Below are positions 14,134 to 64,000 of a stretch of 64,000 nucleotides of DNA, in pieces. The stretch is taken from assembly GCF_900106585.1 (NCBI RefSeq), contig NZ_FNWH01000006.1:992001-1056000 (forward strand), in the 5' to 3' direction. The position numbers and the translations under genes were made by a program. The first letter of the stretch is position 1. The number at the start of each line of letters is the position of its first letter. The DNA is from Acidaminococcus timonensis. Its GTDB lineage: Bacteria; Bacillota; Negativicutes; Acidaminococcales; Acidaminococcaceae. The notes under the pieces are model-generated. The model searched no databases, had not been told where the DNA came from, and worked only from the letters and a program-made list of their open reading frames with translations.

Positions 14134-14149
14134 GCTGATGAAGGGGATT
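14134..14149. repeat. 16-bp inverted repeat, proximal side of recombinase gene
   Basis: GCTGATGAAGGGGATT, the inverted partner of 13157-13172. It overlaps the hsdR stop codon. The first 12 bases also occur at 18938-18949 inside hsdS. Confidence 0.8.
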
Positions 14150-17324: not shown

Positions 17325-17398
17325 ATTTTTTGGCTCCTTACTGTATATATATCCGTTTAGATCAAGATCGGTGATGTGACCCCAAAAAGTTAGACCTT

Positions 17399-17436
17399 AG
17401 TAACGAGATGGTTTTTACCGTCTCGTTACTTTTTTA
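17399..17436 (+). terminator. Hairpin at the left end of the IS element
   Basis: AGTAACGAGATGGT and ACCGTCTCGTTACT form a stem with loop TTTT and one mismatch, followed on the plus strand by a run of T. It could stop transcription entering or leaving the element. Confidence 0.6.
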
Positions 17437-18854: not shown

Positions 18855-18862
18855 AAAAAAAC

Positions 18863-18905
18863 TAACCCCCAATTGTTAGATTTTTGGTCTAACAATTGGG
18901 GGTCA
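18863..18905 (-). terminator. Terminator-like hairpin built from the right inverted repeat of the IS
   Basis: The right terminal repeat (18888-18905) is mirrored by TAACCCCCAATTGTTAGA at 18863-18880: 18-bp arms with one mismatch and a 7-nt loop. On the minus strand the stem is followed within a few bases by seven T, just before orfA. It should block transcription arriving from hsdS. Confidence 0.7.
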
Positions 18906-18914
18906 GCTCACGGA

Positions 18915-19472: not shown

Positions 19473-19473
19473 T

Positions 19474-26600: not shown

Positions 26601-27430
26601 GCTTTATCTGCTACGTTGCCACCGCCAATAGCCATGACCTGTCCACCGCTCTGTAAAACAGCTTCGCCGACTTTATCTGTGAACGATTCCGGATTCTGAT
26701 AAACGTCGGAATTCATGGAAGCAGCCAACATATTAATCGGTACATCGCCTCTGTACGAGTTAGTAATCTTATTGCCAGCACCGTAAATCAAAACACCGTT
26801 AGAATCCTTTGTCAGATTCCCCTGTCCAACAATACTATTAGCTGTCCCACTGTACCATTTTGAAAAATCGTTAGATGATTTAATTGGAGTGTTTAAATTG
26901 AAATTAAACGATCCTACAGATACAGCAGTAGCCCCTTGAGGAGATAAATCTTCATCGTCTCCATCTTTAACTTTATCATTTTGAATTACAGAATATGAGC
27001 CGATAACAGTACTTGCGTCTCCAGCCGCATATGTACCATATCCCGCAGCCATTGCATAATACGATTTTGCGCCATCATTATTTTTATTTGTATAATGTTT
27101 TTCAAACTCTTCATTGTCGAATATAGCACCTGGAGCAGAATCATTGACACTGTAATACTTCGTCTTCGAAGCATCAACGGTATTGCTGATAGCTTTGAGC
27201 TGTGCCACGTTGACAGCATCGGTATCGTTAGTACCGGCTGCCAGAGCCGTTCCAAATGTCCCCAGGCTCAATACCCCTGCCGCCAGCACAGCGGCCAGCA
27301 GGCTGGTGCCTTTACGGCTGCCCACCACAGCACCCTGGGAGGTTCCCTTTCCGTTATTTTTGGCCAGCTCGGATACCACCACGTAGCAGTTACGTACCTT
27401 GCTGTAAATGACTTTGTAGATTTTGTTCAT
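23681..27430 (-). CDS. Trimeric autotransporter adhesin (YadA-like) with collagen-like stalk
   Basis: A 1249-residue surface adhesin. It begins with the extended signal peptide MNKIYKVIYSKVRNCYVVVS and a hydrophobic core ending at ALAAG. Repeated head and neck modules follow: DAVNVAQLK necks and left-handed helix repeats such as AYMTQVVGVGNTV and NYVIGSHNTLTGSN. A collagen-like stalk of GKDGKDGKDGAVGPQGPA repeats (about residues 925-1005) leads to the YadA anchor (AGAAALAALHPQDFNPDDKW, then FAVGYGNYRDANAMAIGAFY, ending AGVTFKLG). Unusually, about 50 coiled-coil residues (LSKEVTTLRATVAQQDAQLK) follow the last barrel strand. It should form a trimer in the outer membrane and bind host or bacterial surfaces. 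ATG at 27430 follows AAAGGAGGCAGTCTG. Confidence 0.92.
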   Translation of the reverse strand: MNKIYKVIYSKVRNCYVVVSELAKNNGKGTSQGAVVGSRKGTSLLAAVLAAGVLSLGTFGTALAAGTNDTDAVNVAQLKAISNTVDASKTKYYSVNDSAPGAIFDNEEFEKHYTNKNNDGAKSYYAMAAGYGTYAAGDASTVIGSYSVIQNDKVKDGDDEDLSPQGATAVSVGSFNFNLNTPIKSSNDFSKWYSGTANSIVGQGNLTKDSNGVLIYGAGNKITNSYRGDVPINMLAASMNSDVYQNPESFTDKVGEAVLQSGGQVMAIGGGNVADKAYMTQLMGVGNKVQGDDITFTPPELQDDEENYERYITAFNSAFNKQATRLNYVDGFYNNLTNAKNDYVIGMANDISGDDVSSNKSNIVIGDFHQMKNGSNNIILGSQDGKLTQKRYNTDGTLGTKESVNRFTHQEKLADAVMIGHNADVLKNGGVAIGAGSVAVIDKDQVGYDPANGDHQTDTTGTWKSTAAAVSVGDVSKNKTRQITGVAAGTQNTDAVNVAQLKQARTKYYSVNEKTPNVFGDAAKKYAQYLNDDNKGAKEFAGLAAGYMTYAGGIASTVTGSFSGIMNEAAQPGSNDFRGAAALSYGMFNLNDNTSASQPFSGVANSIVGQANVTTDSNAAMVYGAGNSVTNSYRAIDVQKAGAIMQGLKDPKQLNEALKAAVPTSGAQVMVMGGGNTVDKAYMTQVVGVGNTVTGSDKEYTEGTSTQLNYVDGFYNKVENGKNNYVIGSHNTLTGSNVDTNKSNLVLGDNHKLTDRTNNVILGSADKELTISASDAVLIGHNADVKEDGGVALGSGSVASTKKDVEGYDPLKKGASESADKAWKSSWAAVSVGDGTHTRQITGVAAGFADTDAVNVAQLKSVASLPVHIYSGGKGSSGSYTAGSLVATPTISSLQFDFGDGLKADEVDAEGGKRVLVSLDKNALKGDPDFKGDPGKDGKDGKDGAVGPQGPAGKDGKDGKDGAVGPQGPAGKDGKDGKDGAVGPQGPAGKDGKDGKDGKDGKDGGVGTVVGDDTNITVANTETDATKPANYKVSLNKAITVDKVTAGDTTISSNGVSIAGGPSMTKDGIDAGGSKITNVAAGTADTDAVNYGQLKGVESNVQNNTTNINRLNGRVNDLDSRINKVGAGAAALAALHPQDFNPDDKWDFAVGYGNYRDANAMAIGAFYRPDENVMFSMGTNFGNGENMINAGVTFKLGPKNHTTSNKYLLSKEVTTLRATVAQQDAQLKQQSNEIKELREMVSKLLAKEK
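24466..24632. repeat. 54-bp tandem repeats encoding collagen-like Gly-X-Y stalk
   Basis: Three nearly perfect copies of a 54-bp unit encoding GKDGKDGKDGAVGPQGPA, flanked by further GKD triplets. Copy number is likely to change by slippage, altering stalk length in 18-residue steps without breaking the frame. Confidence 0.85.
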
Positions 27431-27973: not shown

Positions 27974-30900
27974 TTACCCATTCAGCTTGGCCAGGATGGC
28001 CTGCAGCTGTTTCTTCATTTCCTGGTTCTCTTTTTCCAGGGCGTCGATCCGTTTGTCCTTGGCTTCCTCGCTGGCCTTCAGATCCTGCACCGCATGGATC
28101 AGGGTTACCCGGTTCATGCCGGCGTACGGGGACGATTTGCCCAGCTTGAAGGCAATGCCGGCGTTGAAGCCAGGGTCTCCGTTACCCAGGGCCACACCGA
28201 AGTTGAACTGGGTCTTGCTGTCGGGCTGGTAGAAAGCACCCACAGCAGCGGCGTTGGCGTTATGGTAATGGCCATAGCCCATGGCGAAGCTCAGCTTGTC
28301 GTCCGGGTCGAATTCCAGCGGATGCAGGGCAGCCAGGGCATTGCTGCCGGCAGCCGCCCGGTTGATGTTGTTGTCCAACCGGCCGTAGGCGTTGTTCATA
28401 TCCCGGTAGATCTGCTGGGTATTGGCGGCGGCCATGTTGTTCACATAACCCACGTTGGCGGCGGAGCTGGCGTCGTTGGTGTCGGTGACCACACCGGTGA
28501 TCACCCGGCCGCTGCCGTTCTTGTCGCTGATGTCCACCTTGGTGGCCGTATCCTTGCTGCCGATCTTGATGGTGCTGCCGTCACTGTTCACCAGATCGCT
28601 GTTCCTCTTCACCTGGGTATCCAGATTCGTGATGTTCTGGGCTGTGGTGTTGTTCTGATTGATATAGGTGCCGCCGGAAGGACGGAGTTCGTTCCAGATG
28701 GTCCCGGCATTCACCGCATTGGTGGAACCTTTTTCGATCTTGGTATCATCCAGGTCGCTGATGGTCTTATTCGCAATGGTCACACCGCCGATGGTGGCGC
28801 TGTTGTTCACGGTCAGGGTATCGGTGGTCGCGCTCTTCGTGGTCACGCTGTTCAGAGAGATATCATCTTTCAGAGATACCTTATAATCCGTATGGCCATC
28901 GTTCTGCACATTTCCATTGACCTTGATATTACTGCCTTCGGAAACGGTGGAATGTTTTCCGGCTGCAGAAGCGGCCTGCTGTACGGCCCCATCCAGTTTG
29001 CCAATGGCACTGGTGATGCTGTCACCATCGCTCACATATTTGTTGGTGCCGCTGGTATTGCTCTTGCTGTAGTTCTGGTCGCCGATCTTGGTATTCATAC
29101 TGGTATTCACGTTGTTGATGGCATCCACCACCGTAGTCGTTTTGCCACCAGCGTTCTTCACACCGTCAGCCAGCTTGGAAACATCGCCCATTTCGCTGGA
29201 CTTGGCTACGTCGGTAATGATAACGGTACCTTTTGTATCGTTATTCTTATCAACAAGATTCATGGAAACCTGATTCTGATCATTTACTGCATAGGAACCA
29301 GCTGCTACATGGATATCGTTCTCCCCGGCCTGCTTGACAGCATCCTTCACAGCCGCGTCCACCTGGCTTTCGGTAGCAGCCTTCGTGGAGTTGGAGTAAT
29401 CGTTGGCTTTGGAATCCCAGGTCGTATTGGTCAGGCCGGAAATTTCACCGTTCGTCCCGTCAATGGTGACCTGTTTGGTCTTGTCCGAACCAATGGTAAT
29501 CTTGTCGCTCAGGCCGATGCCGTTGGAGTCCACCTTCAGATTGCTGTCGGAGGTCTTGATTTTGAGAGCCTTTGTTGTTTCATCAACAGTCAAGCCATCG
29601 CCTGTGTTGACAGCCAGTTTTCCGCTGTCGAATTTGAGGCCATCCCCTTGGTTGACGGAAATAACATTCTTCCCGGATGTACCATCCTTCTGAATAGTAA
29701 TGCCATTGCCATTGGTGTAGCCGTTATCTACGCCCTGCTGTACCAGTGTCTGCACATCGCTGATGGAGGCTGCATTGTTAGCGCTCCCCTTAATGATCTT
29801 TCCATCTTTTGTCAGGTTCGAAGCCACATCTTTGATGCTGCCGCCGTTGAGGCTGATGTTCTTATCCGTCGTATCGAGAGTAATCTTAGCTCCTTTGTCA
29901 TCGGTACTGCCGGAAATAGAGGTGATGCTGGTGAGGTCTTTGGCCAGCTGGATTTTCAGGCCGTCAGTGCTGCTGTTTACACCAATGTTTTTATCCGTCA
30001 GCTTCGTGCTGTCTGCGCCTCCGGTGATATTCAGCTGTTCATTCAGTTTCCTTGCGATAACCGTGCTGTCATCGCCTTTGAATTTCAGTCCATCATCGAG
30101 GGTTGCGAAGGTATGCTTACCGTTGCCATCCTTGTCCTGGTAAACGACACGAGTGATGCCATCCTTGCCGTCCACGCCGGCTGCGCCCTGTTCCGTCTTG
30201 ATGTAGGTCATGGTGTAGCCGTCTTTGCCATTCTGACCAGCAATACCGATGGAGCCGTCTTTGCCATCCTTGCCATCTTTGCCGACAGTGATGTTATCCA
30301 GTCCGCCATGGAGGGCGTCGTAGACCGTCTTGCCAGTTACAAGCTGATTGGCATGTTCGTTAGTAGAATCAGCTACCGCACCGGTACCAATAGCTGCGCC
30401 CCAATTATCCAGATTTGTCTTCTGTGCTGTTGTATCAGTGATATGGGTACCGATATTGTCAGCAGCCACATTTGCCTTCAGCGCCAGCTTGTCATCCGTA
30501 TTGCCAGCTTCTTTTTCAATCATGCTGTGGACGTCACCAATGTTGGCGGCATTGTTCTTATCTGTATCTGCATAGGTTCCGTCAGTTGCAGTAAGGCCGC
30601 TCTTAACATCAGTAATCTTACCGCTATTGACACTGATACTGCCATCGTCCTTCAGGTCAATCTTTGCACCAGTAGTAGTCTGGGCATCACCTTTGCCAGT
30701 TGTTGTCTGGTTGGCAATGGATGTAATGCCTGCAAGGTTCTTGGCCAGCTGGATTTTCAGGCCGTCAGTGCTGCTGTTTACACCGATGTTTTTATCCGTC
30801 AGCTTCGTGCTGTCTGCGCCTCCGGTGATATTCAGCTGTTCATTCAGTTTCCTTGCGATAACCGTGCTGTCATCGCCTTTGAATTTCAGTCCATCATCGA

Positions 30901-33900
30901 GGGTTGCGAAGGTATGCTTACCGTTGCCATCCTTGTCCTGGTAAACGACACGAGTGATGCCATCCTTGCCGTCCACGCCGGCTGCGCCCTGTTCCGTCTT
31001 GATGTAGGTAATGGAATAGCCGTCTTTGCCATTCTGACCAGCAATGCCTATGGAGCCGTCTTTACCGTTCTGACCGTCTTTGCCAACGGTGATGTTGTCT
31101 AAGCCGCCATGAAGAGCGTCATAGACCGTCTTGCCGGTAACCATCTGCTTCGAACCATCATCATCCTTGGTCACCGTGCCAGTACCAATGGCTGTCGCCC
31201 AAGCTTCTTTATTCTTCGTCTTATCAGTATCAGTAGCCGCTGTTGTCCCATCAGCTCCGTACTGCAGATTAGCACCAATATTGGAAGCATCGATGTTAGC
31301 CAGCTTCTTAATCTGGGCCACGTTAACAGCATCCGTATCGTTGGTGCCGGCTGCCACCCCGGTGATCTGGCGAGTATGGGTCCCATCGCCTACAGAAACC
31401 GCTGCCCAGGAGGATTTCCAGGCCTTGTCAGCCGATTCGCTGGCACCCTTCTTCAGAGGATCATAGCCTTCCACGTCTTTATTCGTAGAAGCCACAGACC
31501 CGCTGCCCAGGGCCACGCCGCCGTCAACGCTCACATCGGCATTGTGTCCGATGACTACGGCGCCGGAAGCGGCCAGTTCCTTGCTGGAATCGGCCGAGCC
31601 GATGACCACATTGTTGCTCTTATTACTCAGGGTATGGTTATCGCCAAAGACGATGTTCTTGCTGCCGCCTGTCAGGTTATTCTGGGCACCGATGATGTAA
31701 TTGCTCGTACCGCCCGTAACAGTGTTATTAAAGCCTTCCACATAGTTCAGTTCCGTACTGGAAACCGTGTTGCCGAGGCCCACAACCTGGGTCTTGTAAG
31801 CACTGGTGATTTTGTTGCCGCCGCCGATGGCCATGACCTGCCCGCCGCTTTCCGGAACGGCCTGCTGCAGGGCTTCTTCCAGCGCTTCCGGCGTGCTGCC
31901 CTTCATGGTGCTGGTATCGATTTTTACATCCTTATAGGAATCGGTGATGGTGTTCCCGGCACCGATGATGATGGCGGCGTTGGAATTGGTGGTCATGTTG
32001 CCCTGGCCCACGATGCTGTTGGCCACGCCACTGAAAGTCTTACTTGTATCGGTATTCTGGTTCAGGTTCAGGGTACCCAGGGAAATAGAGGCTGCACCCT
32101 GCAACCCGGAACCTATAACGCCGGAATAGGAACCGACAACGGTCGAAGCAATGCCGGTAGTGCCGGTTTCATAGCCCGCAGCCAGGCCCGCCCAGGCGGA
32201 AGCACCATCGTTGTTTTCGTTGGTGCTGAACCCGGCAATCTGGGGCCCTTTGTGGACGGAGTAGTATTTGGTTTTTGCATTGCCAATCGCCGTATTCATC
32301 TGCCCTACGGTAGCGGCATCGTTGGCATTGGCCCCATCTTTCAGGTTCGTGATGGTGGTGCCACCTTCACCGGCCAGAGTGATCTTTGTATTGTCGACAA
32401 CGGTCTTACCATTTTCCGTTTTGGTATCATACTTCACAGACCGGCTATTCACATCGGAAAGTGTATCCGTATTGGTCTTTACCTGTCTATCCAGATTCAG
32501 CAGATTCTGGCCAGTCGTGTTGTTTGCCGACACATAATTCAATTTCTTGCCAGTTTCTGCAACCGGCGCATCATAGTTGTACAGCGTCTTGCCCGTTACC
32601 AGCTGGTCGGAAGTAGAAGCATCCGTAGCAGCATCGGATGTGCCTGTAGTAAACGGTTCTGCACCAAGAGCCTTGCCCCAGTCATCTTTATTGGTTTTCT
32701 TCTGGTCATCTGTTGCATCGGCTTCTGTAATGGTTTCTCCATTATCACCGACGGTGTAGGTCTTCAAGTTATTGCCAATATTGGATGCGTCCGATTTGGT
32801 ATACGGTTTCAGCTGTTCCATGACGACGACATCGTGGTCATCCTGGCCGTCGGCGACTTTGACAAGGCGGTTGTAGTAAGCGTCTTTATACTTCGTAGGA
32901 GTTACAGATTTCGGAGCTTTGGTATAATCATTAGCCGTTCCATCAGCATTGACCTGACCTTTGGGCAGTTTGTTCCATTCGATGGTATAGCCGGAGACAT
33001 CGCCTGCATCATGGCCAAACGCAATCGTGCCTTCTTTATCAGTTGTGGCCTGATAGCCAACGGCTGTACCATTAGCTGTTGTGACAACGGACTGATTACC
33101 TGCCGCTAAGCCATTTAACGCTTCAGTACCGGTAGAACCACCAGCCAGACTAACTGAGTAGTTACCATTTACACTAGTGCTGTAACCATACATACCATTG
33201 CCGCCCGTTCCGCCGATGGCGGTTGAAGAAGTCCCCAATGCATAGTTGTATGCACCACCAAGAGCAACAGCCTGCTGACCATTGGCAACATTCATGATAC
33301 CGCCTCCGGCTGTAGAAGCAATACCACCAGCCGTGTTATTACGTCCACCGAATACAGCAGACTGATTTCCTGCTGCATTATTGTTATCACCGCCGACGAC
33401 TACAGACGTAGCGCCAGAAGCAACATTGTCCAATCCACCGACAACGACACTGCTCTTGCCGGATGCCAAGGCTTTACCAGCACCAACGACAACGGAATTT
33501 GCATCAGCAGCACCGTACTGTTTTGCAGAATCTCTGTCTTCAACCAGACCGCCGATAATCATGCCGTTAGCCTCGGCATCGTTGTACCCCGTGCCAAGAT
33601 TGTGTTTCAGGCTGATGACATTTTTAGTTCCCTTTCCGGTTTTCGGGTCTTTTTCATCAGCAACGTTGATGCCCCAACCGGCATTGACGTTCAAATTATC
33701 AGCTTGTTTAATAGCGTCATTCATCTGACCAACGGTAACAACATCGGAGTTATCGGTACCTTTAGCGACATTGGTGATGCGACGCTTAAGAGTTCCATTA
33801 CCTACGGAGACGTAAGAATCATTTTTATCTGTAGATGTAGCGTCTGAATAGGCACCGATGGCGATGTTCCCGTCTTTGGCTTTAGCGCTATAGCCTAAAG

Positions 33901-34615
33901 CAACGGAAGACCATGTGATTGACGGATTTAATTTGATCCCATAATTATCGTCTTGTACCGTACCGGAAGTTCCTTCATTTCCTTCGTAATCTACTACCTG
34001 GCTGGTTTCATGGGTATTTACAGCGACGGCATTGGAACCGATGGCAATGGAACCCCAGCCGGTGGCATTAGACTGGAAACCAACAGCTGTTACATAATTG
34101 TTGCTCATTCCGACAGGATTATTCTCTCTCCCGTCATTATATCTGTCGAGTTCCCCGATAAACACACTGCCTTTTGACTGTCCGGCATTGCGGTTCCCAA
34201 TGGTAACCGTCTGCTCTCCTGCCTGTGCATACAAGCCCGCAGTGACAGCACCCGGTTCCTTTGCACCGCCGCCCTCATAGTTGGGTAATTTTTGCCAAGA
34301 GCGGTTATTGTTGATACTGCTTATTTTATATGGATACTTCTCCCACTGATTTGTTTTTTCATCAAAGTACCAGTAGTAACCATTGGCTCCTACATAGTCA
34401 TTATTTTTCAGACTTTCAGTTCCGTCGGCCGCCTGCGCAACTGACGGCATCCCCGTCAAACAAAAAGACGTCAATGCAAGGAGGATGGCTGCTGCCAGGG
34501 CAGTTTTCCCCTTTACATTGACGCTGTGACATTTGCGCTGGTTCTTCGCCAGTTCGGAAACCACCACATAGCAGTTCCGCACCTTACTGTAGATGACTTT
34601 GTAGATTTTATTCAT
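27974..34615 (-). CDS. Giant trimeric autotransporter adhesin (YadA-like)
   Basis: A 2213-residue surface adhesin. It shares its first 25 residues with adhesin 1 (MNKIYKVIYSKVRNCYVVVS and on), followed by a signal core ending VAQAADG. The passenger has many YadA-head repeats (SVVVGGLDNVASGATSVVVG), DAVNVAQIK and AATVGQMN necks, Gly-rich KDGKDGSIGIAGQNGKDGY segments, and a module of about 130 residues present twice. The C-terminus has the YadA anchor (GSNALAALHPLEFDPDDKLS through AGIAFKLG) and then a roughly 50-residue coiled-coil tail (EEAKDKRIDALEKENQEMKK). It is intact despite its size. The start at 34615 follows AGGGGGTAATTTTT, a weaker site than that of adhesin 1. Confidence 0.92.
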   Translation of the reverse strand: MNKIYKVIYSKVRNCYVVVSELAKNQRKCHSVNVKGKTALAAAILLALTSFCLTGMPSVAQAADGTESLKNNDYVGANGYYWYFDEKTNQWEKYPYKISSINNNRSWQKLPNYEGGGAKEPGAVTAGLYAQAGEQTVTIGNRNAGQSKGSVFIGELDRYNDGRENNPVGMSNNYVTAVGFQSNATGWGSIAIGSNAVAVNTHETSQVVDYEGNEGTSGTVQDDNYGIKLNPSITWSSVALGYSAKAKDGNIAIGAYSDATSTDKNDSYVSVGNGTLKRRITNVAKGTDNSDVVTVGQMNDAIKQADNLNVNAGWGINVADEKDPKTGKGTKNVISLKHNLGTGYNDAEANGMIIGGLVEDRDSAKQYGAADANSVVVGAGKALASGKSSVVVGGLDNVASGATSVVVGGDNNNAAGNQSAVFGGRNNTAGGIASTAGGGIMNVANGQQAVALGGAYNYALGTSSTAIGGTGGNGMYGYSTSVNGNYSVSLAGGSTGTEALNGLAAGNQSVVTTANGTAVGYQATTDKEGTIAFGHDAGDVSGYTIEWNKLPKGQVNADGTANDYTKAPKSVTPTKYKDAYYNRLVKVADGQDDHDVVVMEQLKPYTKSDASNIGNNLKTYTVGDNGETITEADATDDQKKTNKDDWGKALGAEPFTTGTSDAATDASTSDQLVTGKTLYNYDAPVAETGKKLNYVSANNTTGQNLLNLDRQVKTNTDTLSDVNSRSVKYDTKTENGKTVVDNTKITLAGEGGTTITNLKDGANANDAATVGQMNTAIGNAKTKYYSVHKGPQIAGFSTNENNDGASAWAGLAAGYETGTTGIASTVVGSYSGVIGSGLQGAASISLGTLNLNQNTDTSKTFSGVANSIVGQGNMTTNSNAAIIIGAGNTITDSYKDVKIDTSTMKGSTPEALEEALQQAVPESGGQVMAIGGGNKITSAYKTQVVGLGNTVSSTELNYVEGFNNTVTGGTSNYIIGAQNNLTGGSKNIVFGDNHTLSNKSNNVVIGSADSSKELAASGAVVIGHNADVSVDGGVALGSGSVASTNKDVEGYDPLKKGASESADKAWKSSWAAVSVGDGTHTRQITGVAAGTNDTDAVNVAQIKKLANIDASNIGANLQYGADGTTAATDTDKTKNKEAWATAIGTGTVTKDDDGSKQMVTGKTVYDALHGGLDNITVGKDGQNGKDGSIGIAGQNGKDGYSITYIKTEQGAAGVDGKDGITRVVYQDKDGNGKHTFATLDDGLKFKGDDSTVIARKLNEQLNITGGADSTKLTDKNIGVNSSTDGLKIQLAKNLAGITSIANQTTTGKGDAQTTTGAKIDLKDDGSISVNSGKITDVKSGLTATDGTYADTDKNNAANIGDVHSMIEKEAGNTDDKLALKANVAADNIGTHITDTTAQKTNLDNWGAAIGTGAVADSTNEHANQLVTGKTVYDALHGGLDNITVGKDGKDGKDGSIGIAGQNGKDGYTMTYIKTEQGAAGVDGKDGITRVVYQDKDGNGKHTFATLDDGLKFKGDDSTVIARKLNEQLNITGGADSTKLTDKNIGVNSSTDGLKIQLAKDLTSITSISGSTDDKGAKITLDTTDKNISLNGGSIKDVASNLTKDGKIIKGSANNAASISDVQTLVQQGVDNGYTNGNGITIQKDGTSGKNVISVNQGDGLKFDSGKLAVNTGDGLTVDETTKALKIKTSDSNLKVDSNGIGLSDKITIGSDKTKQVTIDGTNGEISGLTNTTWDSKANDYSNSTKAATESQVDAAVKDAVKQAGENDIHVAAGSYAVNDQNQVSMNLVDKNNDTKGTVIITDVAKSSEMGDVSKLADGVKNAGGKTTTVVDAINNVNTSMNTKIGDQNYSKSNTSGTNKYVSDGDSITSAIGKLDGAVQQAASAAGKHSTVSEGSNIKVNGNVQNDGHTDYKVSLKDDISLNSVTTKSATTDTLTVNNSATIGGVTIANKTISDLDDTKIEKGSTNAVNAGTIWNELRPSGGTYINQNNTTAQNITNLDTQVKRNSDLVNSDGSTIKIGSKDTATKVDISDKNGSGRVITGVVTDTNDASSAANVGYVNNMAAANTQQIYRDMNNAYGRLDNNINRAAAGSNALAALHPLEFDPDDKLSFAMGYGHYHNANAAAVGAFYQPDSKTQFNFGVALGNGDPGFNAGIAFKLGKSSPYAGMNRVTLIHAVQDLKASEEAKDKRIDALEKENQEMKKQLQAILAKLNG
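29941..30331. repeat. Intragenic near-identical repeat, copy 1
   Basis: About 390 bp nearly identical to 30742-31132, offset by exactly 801 bp (267 codons). Encodes the segment from GKDGKDGSIGIAG to GLKIQLAK. Confidence 0.85.
30742..31132. repeat. Intragenic near-identical repeat, copy 2
   Basis: The second copy of the adhesin 2 module. It differs from copy 1 by few bases, so the duplication is recent or maintained by gene conversion. Confidence 0.85.
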
Positions 34616-50069: not shown

Positions 50070-50172
50070 AACAAAAAAAGCCGCCCCGGGACCAAAACAG
50101 GTGCCCAGACGGTCGGCAAGCAAGGATCATGCTCCCTGTGGGTAAACCCACTTCCGTCAGTCACATGATCTG
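50070..50172 (-). promoter_or_regulatory. ZTP (pfl) riboswitch with overlapping terminator
   Basis: The minus-strand leader has GATCATGTGACTGACGG, a hairpin GTGGG-TTTA-CCCAC, AGGGAGCATGATC closing the first stem, and a second part with CCGACCGTCTGGGCACC. This matches the conserved ZTP aptamer, including its pseudoknot segment. The second part can instead pair with GGTCCCGGGGCGGC followed by T7, an intrinsic terminator. ZMP/ZTP binding should prevent termination and switch on the transformylase gene. Confidence 0.9.
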
Positions 50173-50180
50173 TCCTTCAA

Positions 50181-56063: not shown

Positions 56064-56669
56064 CTATTTCATCAGCCCCATGAACCGTTCCATGGGCAAT
56101 ACCCGGTACAGCACCAGGCAGATGAGCAGATCGGGGATCAGGTAGGTTCCATTGGCCACCAGGGAATACACCACCGGACTCATGCCGGCCGGCGCATAGC
56201 TGGCAAAAAAGGCCACACCGGAAATGAAATGGCACAGATACCGCACTCCCACAGCCACCACCATGCCCCCGAAGGGATGCTTCGGGAAGAACCCGCACAG
56301 GCCCAGTGCCATGAAAGGCAGCGGATAATCGAACAGCACCTGCACCGGATGCAGGATGTAGGGATTGAGCAGCAGGTTCAGGATGCCATAGGCGAATCCG
56401 GCCAGAAATCCCACTTCCGGCCCGTAGGCAAAGGCGATGAGCATGATGGGCAGCATGCCCCCCAGGGTCACCGTGCCCCCGTAGGGCATCCGGTACAGGG
56501 GCAGCAGGCTCAAAATCAGGGTCAGGGCCAGGAGCAGGGCGCAGCAGGTCACCTGATGGGTGGAAAGCTTCGTCTTCCGGGCCCGCAGCAGCCCGTACAG
56601 CAGCACCAGCACCCCCGCCAGGGTCAGCACGGTCAGGGGGCTTTTTTCAATCATGGAAAGGAACTTCAT
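56064..56669 (-). CDS. thiT: Thiamine ECF transporter S component (ThiT)
   Basis: A 201-residue membrane protein with about six helices. The pattern MPYGGTVTLGGMLPIMLIAF, YGPEVGFLAGFAYGILNLLL, NPYILHPVQVLFDYPLPFMA and LGLCGFF closely follows ThiT, which binds thiamine outside and hands it to the shared energy-coupling factor module. The EcfAAT genes are not here. It overlaps nfo in ATGA, so the two are translated together. I see no TPP riboswitch in the leader, unlike many thiT genes. Confidence 0.88.
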   Translation of the reverse strand: MKFLSMIEKSPLTVLTLAGVLVLLYGLLRARKTKLSTHQVTCCALLLALTLILSLLPLYRMPYGGTVTLGGMLPIMLIAFAYGPEVGFLAGFAYGILNLLLNPYILHPVQVLFDYPLPFMALGLCGFFPKHPFGGMVVAVGVRYLCHFISGVAFFASYAPAGMSPVVYSLVANGTYLIPDLLICLVLYRVLPMERFMGLMK

Positions 56670-57511
56670 TCTTCTTCCGCCTCTTTTCTGGCTTCCCGCA
56701 TGATCCGGATTTCTTCGGCATACCCATCCAGATCATTGGGGGTTTCCAGGATAAAGGGCAGTTTCCGCAGGGCCGGATGGTTCACCACGTTTTTCAGGGC
56801 CGGCAGGCCGATCATCCCCTGCCCCAGTTTCTCGTGCCGGTCTTTGGCCGCACCCAGGGGATTCTTGCTGTCGTTCAGATGGATGGCCTTCAGCTTTTCC
56901 AGCCCCACCACGTCATCGAATTCCTGCAGCACCCCGTCCAGGTCGTGGACGATATCGTAGCCACCGTCCCAGACGTGGCAGGTATCCAGGCAGATGCCCA
57001 CTTTTTCCGGATGTTCCAGCCGGTCCAGGATGGCCCGCAGTTCCCCGAAATTCCGGCCCATTTCCGTCCCCTTCCCCGCCATGGTCTCCAGCAGCAGCGT
57101 GGTATGCATGGCCGGATCGATGATCTGGTTCAGGATCTCCCCGATGAGCACAATGCCGGTCTGGCTGCCCTGGCCCAGGTGGTTGCCCGGATGCATGTTG
57201 TAATAGTTGCCGGGCAGGGCCTCCATTTTGCGCAGGTCGTCGGCCAATGTCTCACGGGCGAACTCCCGCACATGGGGTTTGCTGGAGCAGGGGTTCAGGG
57301 TATAGGGAGCATGGGCCACCAGGGGGACGGCCCGGTTGGGTGTCCACAGTTCCCGAAAGGCGGCCACGTCGGCCGGATCGGTCTCCCTGGCCTTGCTGCC
57401 CCGGGGATTGCGGGTGAAAAAGGCAAAGGTATCCGCCCCGATGCTGAGCGCGGTCCTCCCCATGGCCGCAAACCCCTTGCTGCTGGACAGGTGACATCCG
57501 ATATGTAACAT
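56666..57511 (-). CDS. nfo: Deoxyribonuclease IV (AP endonuclease)
   Basis: A 281-residue endonuclease IV that cuts DNA at abasic sites. It starts MLHIGCHLSSSKGFAAMGRT and has the metal-site pieces FFTRNPRGSK, NYYNMHPGNHLGQGSQTGIV, LLLETMAGKGTEMGRNFGEL, VGICLDTCHVWDGGYDI, HLNDSKNPLGAAKDRHEKLG and FILETPNDL. I start at 57511 because this is the family start; the frame extends upstream through repeat DNA. It is first in an operon with thiT. Confidence 0.95.
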   Translation of the reverse strand: MLHIGCHLSSSKGFAAMGRTALSIGADTFAFFTRNPRGSKARETDPADVAAFRELWTPNRAVPLVAHAPYTLNPCSSKPHVREFARETLADDLRKMEALPGNYYNMHPGNHLGQGSQTGIVLIGEILNQIIDPAMHTTLLLETMAGKGTEMGRNFGELRAILDRLEHPEKVGICLDTCHVWDGGYDIVHDLDGVLQEFDDVVGLEKLKAIHLNDSKNPLGAAKDRHEKLGQGMIGLPALKNVVNHPALRKLPFILETPNDLDGYAEEIRIMREARKEAEEE

Positions 57512-57554
57512 AAACAGGATCCTTTCTAAGATAACAACGCACTGTACAATAAAT

Positions 57555-57664
57555 TCGTAGGGGCTACCCGTCAGGGGAGCCCGAACCCAGGTCGCCCAGA
57601 GGGCCAACCGGTTATCTCGTACCTGGGAACGGACGTCCCTTATGGGCCGTCCCTACGCATTTCT
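57555..57664. repeat. Family B palindromic repeat (full)
   Basis: CGTAGGGGCTACCCGTCAGG and GGAGCCCGAACCCAGGTCG, then CCTGGGAACGGACGTCCCTT and ATGGGCCGTCCCTACGCA. It is the reverse-complement counterpart of 43597-43706 with a different spacer. Confidence 0.8.
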
Positions 57665-57688
57665 TTCGTACATCCGATATATTCCTTA

Positions 57689-59023
57689 TTATTTCGCACT
57701 GTTGGTGAAGTCATAGGGCAGTTCGATGATGAACCGCATGCCCTTGCCTTCGGCGTTGTCCGCCTTGATCAGGCCTCCCAGCAGGTGTACCAGGCGGTGG
57801 GTCACCACCAGCCCCAGACCTCCGTGGACCTTGGCACTGCCCACCTGCCGGGTCAGCTCAAAGGGCAGGAACACTTTGTCCACCATATTCTGGGGCATCT
57901 TCATGCCCGCACACAGCACGGTGAACTCCATGCACACCTTTTTGTTCTTCACCAGCTTCTGGCGCACGGCGCACAGCACCCGCTGCCCCTTCTCCGTAAA
58001 CAGCAGCGCATTGGTCAGGAGGTTCAGCAGCACCTGTTCCAGCCGTTTCTCGTCTCCCACCAGATGGGTGTACAGCAACGGTTCCACATTGCAGGAATAG
58101 GAAATTCCCCGCTTGGCCGCCTCTTTCTGGAACAGAGCGTTCATTTTTTCCAGGGTTTTGTCCACGTCAAAGGCTTCGCTGCGGGTTTCCAGGGTCCCGT
58201 TTTCCATGTCGGACAGTTCCTTCACGTCTTCGATCATGCTCATCAGGTACCGCACTTTGCTCTGGCTCTGCTCCATGTATTCCTTCCGCCGGTCCGGGTC
58301 CACTTCCCCCTCGGTCAACGTCAGATTGCCCATGATGTCCCGCAGGGCTTCCCGGGTATCCTGGCTGATCCGGTTCAGAAATTCCGCCTTGGCCTGGACG
58401 GCCTCTCTGGCCTGATCCCTGTCCTGGCTCAGCCGGGCCCGTTTTTCCATCTCAGCGCCCCGGGTGTCGTTCACATCCCGCTTCAGCAGCAGGCAGCTGC
58501 GGGTATGGATGGCGTCCTTCTTCACGCCCTGGAACAGGATGGATTTCCAGTGCCAGGTCCCGTCTGCTGCTTTTTCCCGGGCGGTGAATTCCACAGGCTG
58601 GCAGGTCTTCATGGCCTTTTCCAGATACCCTTTCAGCACCTCTTCCGGGTACTTGGCCGCATCTTCCGGCAGCAGGGGGCCGATCAGGTCGCTGAGGCTG
58701 TCGATGTCCCGTTCCTGGATTTCCAGCCGGCCATCCCGGAAATGGTACCGGTAGGCTTTCTGTTTCTTCCAGTCCACGTCTTCCAGACTGTCATAGGTAT
58801 CGCACAGGTGGCTGATCATGCCGCTGATCTGATAGGTCAGCCGCCGCTGCCGGCGCAACTGGTGCACCCGGAACCGGTAGGCGATCAGCAGCAGGACGAA
58901 AATGCCCGCCATCACTTCCATGCCGGTACGGACAAAAGGCAGGGAGGGAACCTGGTCCATGCCTCCCAGCAGAATCGTCTTCCAGCCTTCCAATTGCTCC
59001 ATCAGGGTCTTCAAGATTTCCAT
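57689..59023 (-). CDS. Histidine-kinase-like membrane protein lacking the phospho-acceptor His
   Basis: A 444-residue protein with one N-terminal membrane helix (VMAGIFVLLLIAYRF), a PAS-like region (about 90-195, GTWHWKSILFQGVKKDAIH) and a kinase-like half. The dimerisation helix reads KAEFLNRISQDTREALRDIM where kinases have SHExRTPL, so Gln replaces His. The ATPase domain keeps an N box (LEQVLLNLLTNALLFT) and GGLGLVVTHRLVHLLGG, but the G1 box is VLCAGMKMPQ, without the Asp. It probably cannot autophosphorylate by the normal route and may be a sensor that acts by contact. It follows ctpA by 18 bp; no response regulator is nearby. Confidence 0.85.
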   Translation of the reverse strand: MEILKTLMEQLEGWKTILLGGMDQVPSLPFVRTGMEVMAGIFVLLLIAYRFRVHQLRRQRRLTYQISGMISHLCDTYDSLEDVDWKKQKAYRYHFRDGRLEIQERDIDSLSDLIGPLLPEDAAKYPEEVLKGYLEKAMKTCQPVEFTAREKAADGTWHWKSILFQGVKKDAIHTRSCLLLKRDVNDTRGAEMEKRARLSQDRDQAREAVQAKAEFLNRISQDTREALRDIMGNLTLTEGEVDPDRRKEYMEQSQSKVRYLMSMIEDVKELSDMENGTLETRSEAFDVDKTLEKMNALFQKEAAKRGISYSCNVEPLLYTHLVGDEKRLEQVLLNLLTNALLFTEKGQRVLCAVRQKLVKNKKVCMEFTVLCAGMKMPQNMVDKVFLPFELTRQVGSAKVHGGLGLVVTHRLVHLLGGLIKADNAEGKGMRFIIELPYDFTNSAK

Positions 59024-59041: not shown

Positions 59042-60193
59042 TTAGTTGTTCTGCAGCTGGCTGCGCAGGTATGCTTCTGCCGCCTGCAGCTGGTTCGTGC
59101 CTTCTTCGTCGGTGGCCTCCACCACCTGGTCGGGGGTGATGCCCACCTTGTCGATGCTGCGGCCGCTGGGGGTGTAGTACCTGGCCACCGTCAGCTTCAC
59201 CGCCGTCTTGTTGCTCAGCAGGAAAATGTTCTGCACCACGCCCTTGCCATAGGTCTTCCCCCCGAACAGTCTGCCGGAACCGGTGTCCTGGATCGCGCCG
59301 GACACAATTTCCGCCGCACTGGCAGTGCCATGGTTGACCAGCACCGCCAGTGGGAATCCCACCGATTCCAGGGTGGAGCTTTCGGTCTGGGTGTTGCCGT
59401 CCTTGTCGGTGACCGAAACGATGGGGCCTTTGGGCACCAGGTACCGGGCCACACCCACGCCGCTTTCCAGCAGGCCTCCGGGGTTATCCCGCAGGTCCAG
59501 CACCAGGGCTTCCATGCCCTGATCCTTCAGTTCCTGGAGTTTGGTGCCGAAATCCCTTGCGGTATCTTCATTGAAATTGGTCACCCGGATATACCCGATA
59601 TGTCCCTCATCCATGCGCCCGTAAACGCTCTTCAGTTTGATGTCGCTGCGGGTCACAGTGATGTCCTTTGGCTCCTCGTTCCCTCGTTGCAGGGTCAGGG
59701 TCACCTGGGAACCATCTTCGCCCCGGATCTGCTTCACCACCTGGTTCAGGTTCTGGCCGGAAAGATCATTGCCGTCGATCTTCAGCAGGATATCCCCGGC
59801 TTTGATCCCGGCCTGGAAGGCCGGTGTATCCTCAATGGGCGAAACCACCACGAACCGGCCGTCCTTCTGCTGGCCCATGACCATGCCCACCCCGCCGAAA
59901 TGGCCTTCGGTCATGGTGGAGAGGGCCGCAAAATCCTGGTTGTCCAGGTAGGACGAATAGGGATCGTTCAAAACTTTGACCATGCCTTTCAGTGCCCCGT
60001 CATAAATGGCTTTCCGATCGGTTTCCCCTACATAATGACGCTGGATCAGATGCATGGTCCGGACGATCTGGAAAAGGGCACCCGGATCTCCGATCCAGTC
60101 TTTTATCAAATAATAGGTCCCTCCGCTGAAAACACCCAGCGAAAGGAAGAATACTCCCAGCATCTGGGGAGCTGTATATTTCTTTTTAAACAT
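59042..60193 (-). CDS. ctpA: C-terminal processing protease (S41, CtpA-like)
   Basis: A 383-residue periplasmic protease held by an N-terminal membrane helix (MLGVFFLSLGVFSGGTYYLI). It has a PDZ domain (about 100-180, GVGMVMGQQKDGRFVVVSPI, AGIKAGDILLKIDGNDL) and the S41 catalytic domain: NPGGLLESGV, VNHGTASAAEIVSGAI (Ser near 294) and GGKTYGKGVVQNIF (Lys near 318). It cleaves proteins near their C-termini, often in peptidoglycan remodelling. It follows envC after a repeat-filled gap of 144 bp. ATG at 60193 follows GAAGGAGAACC. Confidence 0.95.
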   Translation of the reverse strand: MFKKKYTAPQMLGVFFLSLGVFSGGTYYLIKDWIGDPGALFQIVRTMHLIQRHYVGETDRKAIYDGALKGMVKVLNDPYSSYLDNQDFAALSTMTEGHFGGVGMVMGQQKDGRFVVVSPIEDTPAFQAGIKAGDILLKIDGNDLSGQNLNQVVKQIRGEDGSQVTLTLQRGNEEPKDITVTRSDIKLKSVYGRMDEGHIGYIRVTNFNEDTARDFGTKLQELKDQGMEALVLDLRDNPGGLLESGVGVARYLVPKGPIVSVTDKDGNTQTESSTLESVGFPLAVLVNHGTASAAEIVSGAIQDTGSGRLFGGKTYGKGVVQNIFLLSNKTAVKLTVARYYTPSGRSIDKVGITPDQVVEATDEEGTNQLQAAEAYLRSQLQNN

Positions 60194-60337: not shown

Positions 60338-61471
60338 CTACGGCAGATACTGCAGCGGGCTGGTCACTTCGCCGTGGACACGGACCTCAAAATGGCAGTG
60401 GGGACCGGTGGAATTGCCGGTGCTGCCGGCCAGGGCAATGGTTTCTCCCTTGCCCACCTGCTGGCCCTCGCTGACCGTAATGGAAGAGTTATGCCCGTAC
60501 AGGGTCACCAGGCCGCCCCCGTGGTCGATCATAACCGCGTTGCCGTAGCCGCCCATCCAGCCGGCGTACACCACGGTGCCGCTGTCCGCTGCATGGACCG
60601 GTTCTCCATAATCGGCGCCGATGTCCAGCCCTGCGTGGAAGATCTGGGTCCCCCAGATGGGATGCACCCGCCAGCCGAAAGGCGACGTGATTTCCCCGTT
60701 GACCGGCCACATGAACTGACCGGTCCCGTGGGCCTGGGCCGCCAGACGGCCCTCTTCCTCCATACGCTGGATCATGGCCGTGATTTCCTGGCTGTTGCGC
60801 TGCAGTTCCTCATACTCTGCATCCAGTCTGGCTTTCTCCGCCAGGGCCTGTTCGTACAGGGCCTGCCGTTCCACCGTCTTCTGGGCGATGACCTTCTGCT
60901 CAGCGGCCGCTTCCCCGTGGATGGCCTCCAGTTCCCGCCGGTTGTCGTCCAGGACGGCTTTCTGCTGCTCCAGGGCCGTTTTCTGGCTCTGCAGGGTTTC
61001 GATCAGTTTGAAGTCCCGGCGGATCACCCGCTGGAGCAGGTACATCCGGGAGGCAAAATCCCGGAAATCCGTGGACCCCAGCAGCACATCCAGGTAGTTC
61101 ACCTGGCCGTTTTCGTAGATATCCCGCAGGCGCTTTTCGTAGACCTTCCGGGTCTTGTTGTAATCGGCTTCCTTGGCTTTCAGGGCCGCCTGGTTCTGAC
61201 GGATCCTGATCTCCAGGGCATGCTGCCGGCCCTCTATCTCAGCCAGCTTCCGTTTGGCTTCCGCCAGCTGGTTCTGGGCAGCCACCAGCCGTTCCACGGC
61301 ATTGCCGATTTCCTGTTTTTTCTGTTCCCGCTGGGCATCCTTGGCGTCCATCTGCTGCTGGATCTCCTCCAGCTCCGCCTTCTTCTCCTCGATGGATTCG
61401 GCCCAGGTCACCGGTGCCGACAGCTGGGCGCCCAGCAATACCGCCGCCAGGGCGGCTGCACATGTCTTCAT
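60338..61471 (-). CDS. Murein hydrolase activator EnvC-like, M23 domain
   Basis: A 377-residue exported protein. After a signal peptide (MKTCAAALAAVLLGAQLSAP) come two long coiled-coil stretches (about 25-230, EEKKAELEEIQQQMDAKDAQ) and a C-terminal LytM/M23 domain (about 255-375, GWRVHPIWGTQIFHAGLDIG, DSGTVVYAGWMGGYGNAVMI, DHGGGLVTLYGHNSSI). This is the EnvC layout, in which the coiled coil is driven by FtsEX and the M23 domain activates or cleaves peptidoglycan. It follows ftsX by 11 bp, which strengthens the link. I start at 61471, behind TAGGAGGCGGCCGG. Confidence 0.92.
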   Translation of the reverse strand: MKTCAAALAAVLLGAQLSAPVTWAESIEEKKAELEEIQQQMDAKDAQREQKKQEIGNAVERLVAAQNQLAEAKRKLAEIEGRQHALEIRIRQNQAALKAKEADYNKTRKVYEKRLRDIYENGQVNYLDVLLGSTDFRDFASRMYLLQRVIRRDFKLIETLQSQKTALEQQKAVLDDNRRELEAIHGEAAAEQKVIAQKTVERQALYEQALAEKARLDAEYEELQRNSQEITAMIQRMEEEGRLAAQAHGTGQFMWPVNGEITSPFGWRVHPIWGTQIFHAGLDIGADYGEPVHAADSGTVVYAGWMGGYGNAVMIDHGGGLVTLYGHNSSITVSEGQQVGKGETIALAGSTGNSTGPHCHFEVRVHGEVTSPLQYLP

Positions 61472-61482
61472 CCGGCCGCCTC

Positions 61483-62370
61483 CTATACATCCAGGAATTT
61501 CCGCAGGGAAATGCTGCTGCCCAGGGCCCCGATCAGGGTCCCCACCAGCACCAGCACCCCGCACAGATAGCCCATGGTGGGCCAGGCGGGCAGCATGGGG
61601 AAGAAGGCCAGGGTGGCGTAGATCCGGGTCAGGATGGCCGTATACCCCTGGTACAGGGCCAGGTCGGCAATGGCGGCCCCGATGAGCCCCATGAGCATCC
61701 CCTCCAGCAGGAAGGGCCAGCGGATGAACCAGTCAGTGGCTCCCACGTACTTCATGATGTTCACTTCCCGCCGCCGGGCAAACACGGTGATGCGGATGGT
61801 ATTGCTGATGATGAACAGGGTGGCCACGGCCAATAGAGCGATCAGCAGCACACCGCCGATCCGCAGCACCCGGGTCAGCTGGAACAGGTGGGTCACCACC
61901 TCCTGACCGAACTTGGCCGTCTCCACGCCGGGCAGCTGCTGCAGCTGGGGCACCAGGCCGGGAATCCGCTCCGGCGTATCCACCTGGATCTCAAAAGAAG
62001 CCGGGAAGGGGTTGTCCTGTCCCAGGGCATCCAGCAGTTTCTGCTGGTCCCCCAGCCGGGACTTGAATTCCTGCAGGGCCTGCTCCTTGGTCACCGGCTT
62101 CACCTGCACGATGCCCTCGGTGCTTTTCAGCACCTTCTCCACCTGCTTCAGCTGTTCGGCCGTAGCCTTGTCCTGCATGTAGACGGTGACCTGCACCTGG
62201 CTTTCCAGCTGACGGGCCAGGTTGTTCACATTCAGCACCATGGTGAGGAACATGCCCAGTACCAGCAGGGACAGGGCTACCGTGCTGATGGAGGCGATGG
62301 TCATCAGGGAGTTCCGCTTGAAAGAGGTCAAGGTTTCTTTGATGTAATACCATTTCGTACTAAACTTCAT
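61483..62370 (-). CDS. ftsX: Cell division permease FtsX
   Basis: A 295-residue membrane protein. TM1 (TIASISTVALSLLVLGMFLT) is followed by a periplasmic loop (about 45-165) that binds the hydrolase partner, then three more helices including GGVLLIALLAVATLFIISNT and AAIADLALYQGYTAIL. IRITVFARRREVNIMKYVGA is the coupling segment facing FtsE. It works with FtsE to control murein hydrolases at the septum. The start at 62370 overlaps the ftsE end by 11 bp. Confidence 0.95.
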   Translation of the reverse strand: MKFSTKWYYIKETLTSFKRNSLMTIASISTVALSLLVLGMFLTMVLNVNNLARQLESQVQVTVYMQDKATAEQLKQVEKVLKSTEGIVQVKPVTKEQALQEFKSRLGDQQKLLDALGQDNPFPASFEIQVDTPERIPGLVPQLQQLPGVETAKFGQEVVTHLFQLTRVLRIGGVLLIALLAVATLFIISNTIRITVFARRREVNIMKYVGATDWFIRWPFLLEGMLMGLIGAAIADLALYQGYTAILTRIYATLAFFPMLPAWPTMGYLCGVLVLVGTLIGALGSSISLRKFLDV

Positions 62371-63046
62371 ACCCGTAAACTCCTTTGCGGTCATCCCGGA
62401 CAATGCGCCCGTTTTCCAGGGCGATCACCCGTTTCTGCATATAGTCCACCATGGTCTTGTCGTGGGTGGCCATGATGATGGTGGTGCCGTTGGCATTGAT
62501 CTGGGAAAAGATGTTCATGATTTCCATACTGGTTTCCGGATCCAGGTTGCCGGTGGGTTCGTCAGCGATCACCAGCAGCGGGTCGTTGACGATGGCCCGG
62601 GCAATGGCGATCCGCTGCTGTTCCCCGCCGCTCATCTCGCCGGGATAGGCATCGCCCCGGTCCTTCAGGCCCACCAGTTCCAGCACTTCCTCCACCCGCC
62701 GGCGGATCTTATGGCTGGGTGCCTCGATCACCTGCATGGCAAAGGCCACGTTCTCGTAGGCGGTACGGTTGTTTAGGAGACGGAAATCCTGGAACACGAT
62801 GCCCAGCTGCCGGCGCAGGTATGGGATATCCCGCCGTTTCAGCTTCATCACGTCCACCCCGTCCACGAAGATCTGGCCGCTGGTGGGTTCGATTTCCCGG
62901 GAGATCAGCCGGATGAAGGTGCTTTTTCCGGCGCCGCTGGGGCCTACCAGGAACACGAATTCCCCGGCTTTGATTTCAACATTGATGTCTTCCAGGGCGA
63001 CAGACCCCCCCGGATAGATCTTTCCTGCATGACGCATTTCCAGCAT
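62360..63046 (-). CDS. ftsE: Cell division ATP-binding protein FtsE
   Basis: A 228-residue ABC ATPase. Walker A is [16 protein letters not shown] (about 36-43), the signature [16 protein letters not shown], Walker [14 protein letters not shown], and the H-loop [15 protein letters not shown]. It begins [20 protein letters not shown] as FtsE does. It powers FtsX, and through it EnvC-type activators. I start at 63046, behind AGGAGGATTGTTTCC; the frame upstream overlaps csaB. Confidence 0.97.
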
Positions 63047-63059
63047 GGAAACAATCCTC

Positions 63060-64000
63060 CTACTTGTTTTGGATAAGGGCAAGGGCCCGGCCGATGTTGG
63101 CCTGGGCTTCCTGCCGCAGAGCCCGGATCTGGTCCCGGCGCTGCCGGCCGTCTTCCTGCCACAGCCGGCGGGCCTGCTCCACCAGTTCATCCGCCGTCAC
63201 CCGGCCGATGGTATCCACCACATCGCCTTTCATGCCGTCCACGAACCGGTCCACTTTGGGATCGTAGGAAATGGCCATGAAGGGCACATCGTTCAAAGCG
63301 GCAAATACCAGGGCGTGGAGCCGCATGCCGATCAGCAGGTGGAAATTGCAGATCAGGTCCTGGTACTGCTGGGTGGAACATTTCTGTTCCAGGATGAACA
63401 CGTTCTTCTGATGCTGCATCTGATTCCGCACCTGGGCGGACAGTTCAGCATCTGCCGGGAACTGCAGGGGCACAAACAGGATCTGGGCTCCGAACTCCTG
63501 CTGCAGCCGGTCTGCCGCCCGGGCGAATTCCCGGGTGAACCGTTTCTCCCCTTTCCAGTGGCGCAGCGCCAGCCCCACCACCGGACGGTCCAGGTCCAGG
63601 CCCAATTGCCTGAGCAGACCGGCGCCGGCGTCCTTCCGGCCCACCGGCAGGGAGAACACCGCATCGCTGGTCACATGGATGGTGGCCGGGTCGAAGCCCA
63701 TGGAGCTGAGATCCTCCAGGGAACCGTCGTCCCGCACGGTGATCAGATCCGCTTTTTGACAGACCAGCCGGGTCAGGAAACGGCTGAACCGCCCCCGGAT
63801 GGGGCCGATGCCTTGGGCAAAGAGCATAATCTTCTTCCCCAGGAGGCCGGCCAGGCCGATGATGGACAGATAATAATAAAGGCTCATGCGGCTGGTCACA
63901 TTCTGCAGCAGGCTGCCGCCCCCCGAAAGGAGCAGGTCCGTACCTGCCATCGCCCGCAGGATGCCCCACAAGTTGAACCGATGGATGGCCTTTACCGGAT
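63060..64000 (-). CDS. csaB: Polysaccharide pyruvyl transferase CsaB, partial
   Basis: At least 313 residues, open at the window edge. The protein matches CsaB-type transferases: DLLLSGGGSLLQNVTSRMSL, GKKIMLFAQGIGPIRGRFSR, ITVRDDGSLEDLSSMGF, VTSDAVFSLPVGR, and HLLIGMRLHALVFAALNDVP near the end. CsaB adds ketal-pyruvate to a cell-wall polysaccharide, the usual anchor for SLH-domain surface proteins. The stop codon overlaps the ribosome site region of ftsE (14 bp gap), so csaB-ftsE-ftsX-envC are one transcript. The start lies outside the window. Confidence 0.92.
   Translation of the reverse strand, partial: PVKAIHRFNLWGILRAMAGTDLLLSGGGSLLQNVTSRMSLYYYLSIIGLAGLLGKKIMLFAQGIGPIRGRFSRFLTRLVCQKADLITVRDDGSLEDLSSMGFDPATIHVTSDAVFSLPVGRKDAGAGLLRQLGLDLDRPVVGLALRHWKGEKRFTREFARAADRLQQEFGAQILFVPLQFPADAELSAQVRNQMQHQKNVFILEQKCSTQQYQDLICNFHLLIGMRLHALVFAALNDVPFMAISYDPKVDRFVDGMKGDVVDTIGRVTADELVEQARRLWQEDGRQRRDQIRALRQEAQANIGRALALIQNK

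Follow-up and report, generated by a model that had tools for sequence, protein, structure and literature searches.

The window, by which we mean the whole 64,000-nucleotide stretch of the Acidaminococcus timonensis genome (G000) analyzed here, carries a run of cell-envelope genes that ends in a gene for a histidine-kinase-like protein (HK). A preliminary description had put this reading frame at 57689-59023, in a cell-envelope operon next to ctpA. The frame was found there, on the minus strand, and the neighborhood is correctly named and longer than had been stated, reading csaB-ftsE-ftsX-envC/pcsB-ctpA-HK. The features of the run are as follows.

63060..63971, minus strand: csaB-like polysaccharide pyruvyl transferase
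62360..63190, minus strand: ftsE, ABC ATPase, with its true start probably downstream of the listed one
61483..62403, minus strand: ftsX
60338..61564, minus strand: envC/pcsB-like gene encoding a PcsB coiled coil and an M23 domain that has the HxxxD and HxH motifs
59042..60193, minus strand: ctpA, PDZ-S41 protease, ending 18 bases before the pseudokinase start
57689..59023, minus strand: pseudo-histidine-kinase gene, 444 aa, ATG start, final gene of the ftsEX-envC-ctpA run
57608..57688, minus strand: 81 bases from the pseudokinase stop to the listed nfo ORF start, no receiver domain
56666..57607, minus strand: nfo-like AP endonuclease, TIM barrel, downstream neighbor

The catalytic motifs of CtpA and of the M23 domain were searched for and are present. 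Our genus sample is 9 genomes, the window's own and 8 others, and the gene is present in 9/9 at the same place, with an ATG start and a gap of 17-21 bases after ctpA in every one. On the other side, nfo lies 20-88 bases downstream in 7/9 genus genomes and about 8 kb off in G002; in G008 (C8:32000-51000), 2,551 bases lie between the pseudokinase and nfo. Across 59 family genomes, 54 of them with a ctpA match, an HK match adjoins ctpA in 11, namely the 9 of the genus, G019, and G015, at a search threshold of E <= 1e-15, with which weaker HKs adjoining ctpA in other genera could go unnoticed. The full gene order from csaB to the HK is kept in 10 of these 11 loci, the eleventh, G015, being a 4.5-kb contig that shows envC-ctpA-HK. 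The gene spacing suggests that the pseudokinase gene is a member of the operon. In Pseudomonas aeruginosa, too, envC and ctpA are in one operon, according to PMC12569750.

Elsewhere in the window, a low-GC stretch at 13179-22047 contains a phage-type integrase, hsdR, an IS3-type transposase, and hsdM.

13179-14108, minus strand: phage-type integrase
14148-17324, minus strand: hsdR
17434-18279, minus strand: IS3-type transposase; by eye, another IS ORF extends to 18872
18915-19472, minus strand: short hsdS-like ORF of 185 aa that ends just before the IS ORFs, the only one seen (by eye)
19474-22047, minus strand: hsdM

From this layout, the type I restriction system may be without a full specificity subunit. 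Two neighboring trimeric autotransporter adhesins are encoded on the minus strand at 23681-27430 (1249 aa) and 27974-34615 (2213 aa), both with an ESPR signal, a YadA stalk and anchor, and collagen-like repeats, and a ZMP/ZTP riboswitch at 50096-50174 (minus strand) scores above the Rfam gathering score.

Domains and catalytic residues

The domains and the residues that matter for catalysis are located in the gene as listed.

58871..58924, minus strand: single transmembrane helix, about residues 34-51 (hydrophobic segment, read by eye)
58454..58843, minus strand: PAS-like region, residues 61-190 (AF2 topology and Foldseek)
58169..58453, minus strand: linker and DHp (HisKA) region, residues 191-285, with the Pfam HisKA match inside
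58361..58363, minus strand: Gln221, codon CAG, at the phospho-His site of the H box RISQDTREAL
58349..58351, minus strand: Glu225 at position H+4
57692..58168, minus strand: CA (HATPase_c) region, residues 286-444, with the Pfam HATPase_c match inside
57995..58024, minus strand: N box NLLTNALLFT, Asn338 present, Lys replaced by Leu341 (residue reading)
57911..57913, minus strand: Cys371 replacing the adenine-contacting Asp of the G1 box VLCAGMKMP
57803..57829, minus strand: G2 box VHGGLGLVV, GLGL intact, one residue shorter than in G015 (residue reading)

Pfam aligns the 444-aa protein to HisKA over residues 211-276 at 29.6 bits (cut-off 26.9) and to HATPase_c over residues 323-437 at 56.1 bits (cut-off 26.4), and finds no match in the PAS-like region, residues 61-190. 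The AF2 model comes from a three-sequence alignment and has a mean pLDDT of 52.5. Its best-modeled part is residues 71-170 (block-mean pLDDT 60-86), where the strands and helices follow a PAS-like order in what is a low-confidence model, and the best Foldseek matches of the model are LOV/PAS-histidine kinases with poor rmsd. A helix modeled at residues 28-76, also with low confidence, covers the transmembrane segment. That segment is followed, by eye, by a strongly basic stretch, YRFRVHQLRRQRR, and the positive-inside rule, likewise applied by eye, leads us to expect an N-out, C-in topology with the rest of the protein cytoplasmic.

Both replacements that the preliminary description had read from the letters, Gln for His in the H box and a G1 box without Asp, are borne out as Gln221 and Cys371. 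Its statement that the N and G2 boxes remain holds for the GLGL of G2 and for Asn338, but the N-box Lys has become Leu341, and the Asn is itself replaced by His in the three closest genomes. The F box, KVFLPFE, is intact in the window's protein. Glu225 is a further loss, beyond those described earlier: HisKA phosphatase activity needs Thr or Asn at H+4.

Conservation across the genus

The preliminary description had named orthologues with His at the H site as the sign of a sequencing error or recent mutation. This was looked for, and 0/8 other genus genomes have His; both explanations are rejected, the His being missing from all 8. The accompanying question, whether the Gln is conserved, has a divided answer, for the His is absent in 9/9 but Gln itself occurs in only 4/9: Gln in G000, G003, G006, and G007, Lys in G008, and Arg in G001, G002, G004, and G005. 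We compared 30 loci in all, being the best match in each of the 30 best genomes, and among the 21 outside the genus, 20 have His, the exception being the Arg of G019, which belongs to another genus. For comparison, His is missing in 0.9% of HisKA domains (722 of 76,471) by the count given in PMC12632262.

All nine genus members have Cys for the G1 Asp, Leu or Met for the N-box Lys, and Glu at H+4 (Thr in G015 and G019), and all nine keep GLGL. The N-box Asn is kept in 6/9, including the window, and is His in G003, G006, and G007. The other HisKA kinases of the window's genome serve as a control, with His in 6/6, Thr at H+4 in 6/6, and a clear G1 Asp in 5/6. The sixth, HisKA kinase C6:609 (G000 C6:607500-611000, ORF 1278-2546), keeps its His, has an odd G1 box, LVSNDYKNGAG, and adjoins its own response regulator.

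Receivers and the order of losses

The two ctpA-linked orthologues outside the genus are hybrid kinases. Both carry two receivers, counted by eye, and in both the N and G1 boxes are intact; they differ at the H site, which is His in G015 and Arg in G019. Within the genus, one receiver follows the CA domain in G001, G002, G004, G005, and G008, behind a core without the His and without the G1 Asp. The receiver phosphorylation residues (acidic pair, Asp, Thr, and Lys) are kept in 5/5 of these receiver-bearing genus orthologues. In the window's clade of four (G000, G003, G006, and G007), the receiver is absent.

The tree was built with 22 of the 30 loci in and 8 out and with the three trait columns blanked, and has the topology (G015,(G019,(Arg clade,(G008,(Gln clade))))), the named outgroup forming no single side of any branch. 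Support is 100/99 for G019 plus the genus, 100/100 for both the genus and the Gln clade, and only 93/91 for the G015 fork; the stem branch of the genus is long, at 1.16 changes per column. On this tree, the H site needs 3 state changes, with one loss of His, on the branch joining G019 and the genus. The His loss is thus older than the split of the genus from G019.

Synteny and the tree show that the gene descends from that of an active hybrid kinase located behind ctpA. Because the distant ctpA-linked orthologues are hybrid kinases, one with His and one with Arg, the series reads as a stepwise decay from such a kinase, apparently beginning with the His, going on to the ATP site together with one receiver, and ending, in the window's clade, with the remaining receiver; the first step is read from G019, a single genome that is 63% complete. 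Two further explanations were set aside. An Hpt match is found in none of the 9 genus genomes, not in G015 either, and twice in G019, and loss of an Hpt partner is insufficient alone as the cause of decay, since G015 with its intact His has no Hpt match either. Nor does the receiver appear to have become a gene of its own: the frames that hold the 8 receivers found in G000 are 206-256 aa long, with no bare receiver among them and none adjoining the pseudokinase gene.

Selection and constraint

The pseudokinase gene is under purifying selection, because whole-gene dN/dS (NG86) is 0.10-0.29 in 7/7 pairs. Five neighbor genes come close to this, at 0.03-0.24, with one ctpA pair saturated and nfo missing for one pair. 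Set against six His-bearing kinases measured in G000-G003 and G000-G006 (12 comparisons), the pseudokinase falls at the high end of their range: its three comparisons (G003, G006, and G007) give 0.19-0.30, and theirs 0.12-0.28. Only two of its three comparisons match the control species pairs, and the controls are taken as intact by their motifs, one having an odd G1 box.

In the window's clade, the DHp gives 0.19-0.25 in three comparisons, above all 12 controls (0.02-0.17), and the CA gives 0.11-0.24 against 0.13-0.36 in controls, which is to say it is equally constrained. The sensor part gives 0.26-0.41 against 0.09-0.32, and the first 60 residues are the fastest, at 0.14-0.74 over six pairs; where one of the two genes compared is the window's (three comparisons), they reach 0.43-0.74. 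For the receiver, dN/dS is 0.13-0.15, measurable in 2/4 pairs. The DHp is the best conserved part in 10/10 pairs drawn from the five orthologues with a receiver (identity 66-87%, with CA 48-74% and receiver 50-77%), and in the receiver-less clade, the CA is best conserved in 6/6 pairs, with one tie with the DHp. Hence the DHp relaxation is limited to the window's clade and does not extend to the whole genus. From these rates, we infer that the DHp would have been kept to dock the protein's own receiver and freed on receiver loss, with the CA kept for a role other than ATP chemistry; constraint moved in this way only once, in one four-member clade, as read from few species and with dS partly high.

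Other two-component proteins

The window's genome encodes six other HisKA kinases, none carrying receivers and each with an adjacent response regulator, and eight receiver proteins, none of which adjoins the pseudokinase; among these 8, there is no response regulator gene beside it. Two receiver proteins, one NarL-type and one LytTR-type, fall outside the six HisKA pairs. The NarL-type protein has, by eye, an HK-like ORF, and the contig of the LytTR-type protein yields no HATPase_c match. A response regulator partner for the pseudokinase among these two is possible. The pseudokinase has no close relative in its own genome, the only match at E <= 1e-15 being the protein itself.

Interpretation

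We read the protein as a conserved pseudo-histidine kinase that acts by binding, with a probability of about 65%. Of the marks of an active HisKA kinase, it has the domains, and the phospho-His, two of the ATP-site residues (the G1 Asp and the N-box Lys), and an adjacent response regulator are absent. A pseudo-histidine kinase is one that lacks at least one histidine kinase function and still takes part in signaling; of this kind, the protein shows the histidine kinase fold without catalytic residues, conserved in evolution. The pseudokinase reading of the preliminary description is strengthened by the absence of His from the other genus genomes, by a loss that predates the split from G019, and by the purifying selection, and the results gathered here are compatible with its suggestion of signal sensing and of regulation through binding. 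The residue readings show a predicted protein without the residue for autophosphorylation and phosphate transfer. In all likelihood its ATP binding is poor and the residue normally used for phosphatase activity is missing, and with N338 and GLGL kept, weak nucleotide binding by the window's protein is possible.

Decay toward loss of the gene would fit the ordered loss of catalytic residues and domains, the long genus stem branch (1.16 changes per column), and the fast N-terminus. Against this, the open frame, the position, and the constant ctpA spacing are retained in 9/9 genomes, and selection is purifying in 7/7 pairs, so a pseudogene on its way out is a highly improbable description. A cryptic kinase, using another acceptor residue or other ATP contacts, could point to N338, GLGL, and the F box, all intact in the window's protein, but the G1 Asp and N-box Lys are lost in 9/9 and the N-box Asn in 3/9, and an H site that varies among Gln, Lys, and Arg offers no conserved substitute acceptor at that position; we give this just as little credence. 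The H-site His is dispensable for HisKA phosphatase activity according to PMC12632262, which is what recommends a response regulator phosphatase without kinase activity, and what makes that very unlikely is the H+4 position, Glu in 9/9 genus members in place of the Thr found in 6/6 other HisKA kinases.

The remaining two alternatives are sub-cases of a binding pseudokinase that differ in the partner, and their odds overlap. One is a sensor of a phosphorylated receiver, as DivL is, in which the DHp would dock a receiver and relay its state to the membrane or to the envelope module. DivL (4q20) is both a sequence match and a fold match, 5/9 orthologues have a receiver of their own with acidic pair, Asp, Thr, and Lys kept, REC dN/dS, measurable in 2/4 pairs, is 0.13-0.15, the DHp is best conserved in 10/10 receiver-bearing pairs, and the window's genome has the two receiver proteins outside the six HisKA pairs. 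The receiver is gone in the window's clade, however, with the docking DHp relaxed there, and there is no Hpt match in 9/9 genus genomes, so that we regard this as unlikely for the protein at hand. The other is heterodimerization with another sensor kinase, as RetS does with GacS. The DHp is still recognized by Pfam, RetS structures are among the sequence matches, and six other HisKA kinases are candidate partners; but those six carry no receivers, none is a close relative (E <= 1e-15), and in the window's clade constraint on the DHp has loosened, where a conserved DHp interface would predict the reverse. A kinase partner thus seems decidedly unlikely.

Returning to a conserved pseudo-histidine kinase acting by binding, the mechanism we propose starts from a membrane-anchored protein with PAS-like, DHp, and CA parts, presumably a dimer. 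The PAS-like and membrane part would set the conformation of the DHp-CA core without phosphate chemistry, and the core would bind a partner, in the window's clade chiefly through the former ATPase domain. The likeliest partner may be in the wall-hydrolysis module, either FtsEX on its cytoplasmic side or some factor controlling EnvC/PcsB or CtpA, a step suggested by gene order to which, taken by itself, we give somewhat less than even odds. Phosphate may still be relevant in the receiver-bearing species, that is, in five of the nine orthologues, because their receiver phosphorylation residues and DHp are well kept.

The most extended form of the proposal is tentative, and we hold it to be doubtful in its entirety. 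A hybrid kinase would have become, by way of living intermediates, a cytoplasmic subunit that controls the FtsEX-EnvC/PcsB-CtpA wall-hydrolysis machine without phosphate, with His giving way to Arg, Lys, and Gln, the receivers going from two to one to none, and the ATP site lost between, until the former ATPase domain served as the conserved binding face. Where a receiver remains, phosphate information would run backwards, from the receiver to the dead kinase to the membrane. At one locus in one family, a hybrid kinase with His, a form that has lost the His but has its ATP site intact, a pseudokinase with its receiver intact, and a bare pseudokinase are available for comparison, which allows a direct test of the order of functional losses in a histidine kinase. 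Should FtsEX or CtpA prove to be the partner, a control of cell-wall hydrolysis would have been derived from a two-component system.

Comparison with known systems

Pseudo-histidine kinases are an already known kind of protein. Among the matches listed from the open-licence literature, mostly titles and the starts of abstracts, there is no paper evidently on this gene. Within that literature, what is new is the genus-wide fixation, the graded series at one locus, and the division-operon setting, along with constraint on the CA that persists where kinase, ATP-site, and phosphatase residues have been lost, and the shift of constraint upon receiver loss.

DivL of Caulobacter has Tyr for His and is a pseudokinase that reads DivK~P, as stated in PMC4211667. 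The likeness is in the DHp and CA parts, in the replaced phospho-His, and in a tie to division control, with a PAS-like region here where DivL has PAS parts; DivL's ATP binding is weak, as is predicted here, and we claim no orthology. The Tyr that marks the DivL family at the H site is Gln, Lys, or Arg in 9/9 genus members. Moreover, DivL detects DivK~P and has CckA as its target, whereas the Acidaminococcus protein has no response regulator encoded beside it, is also without the G1 Asp and the H+4 Thr, and sits in an FtsEX-EnvC/PcsB-CtpA cluster. RetS of Pseudomonas (see PMC12675982) provides in its kinase-kinase contact a model for the Acidaminococcus protein, with the differences that RetS acts on GacS and that the Acidaminococcus protein has lost receivers. 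DivL with a response regulator and RetS with a kinase show that pseudokinases can act by contact.

FasC of group A Streptococcus is a proposed pseudokinase in a FasB-FasC heterodimer, according to PMC12675982. It resembles the protein studied here in being kinase-like with a kinase domain of its own that is reported there as dispensable, and differs in that FasC keeps its His (H246), found necessary by the authors of that study, where the Acidaminococcus protein has none. Another comparison is within the same family, to the ctpA-linked hybrid kinases of G015 and G019, which share the locus and the layout of membrane, PAS-like, DHp, and CA parts and are orthologous by position and tree. Of these, G015 differs in keeping the His, the N box, the G1 box, and two receivers, and G019 has already exchanged the His for Arg with the rest kept.
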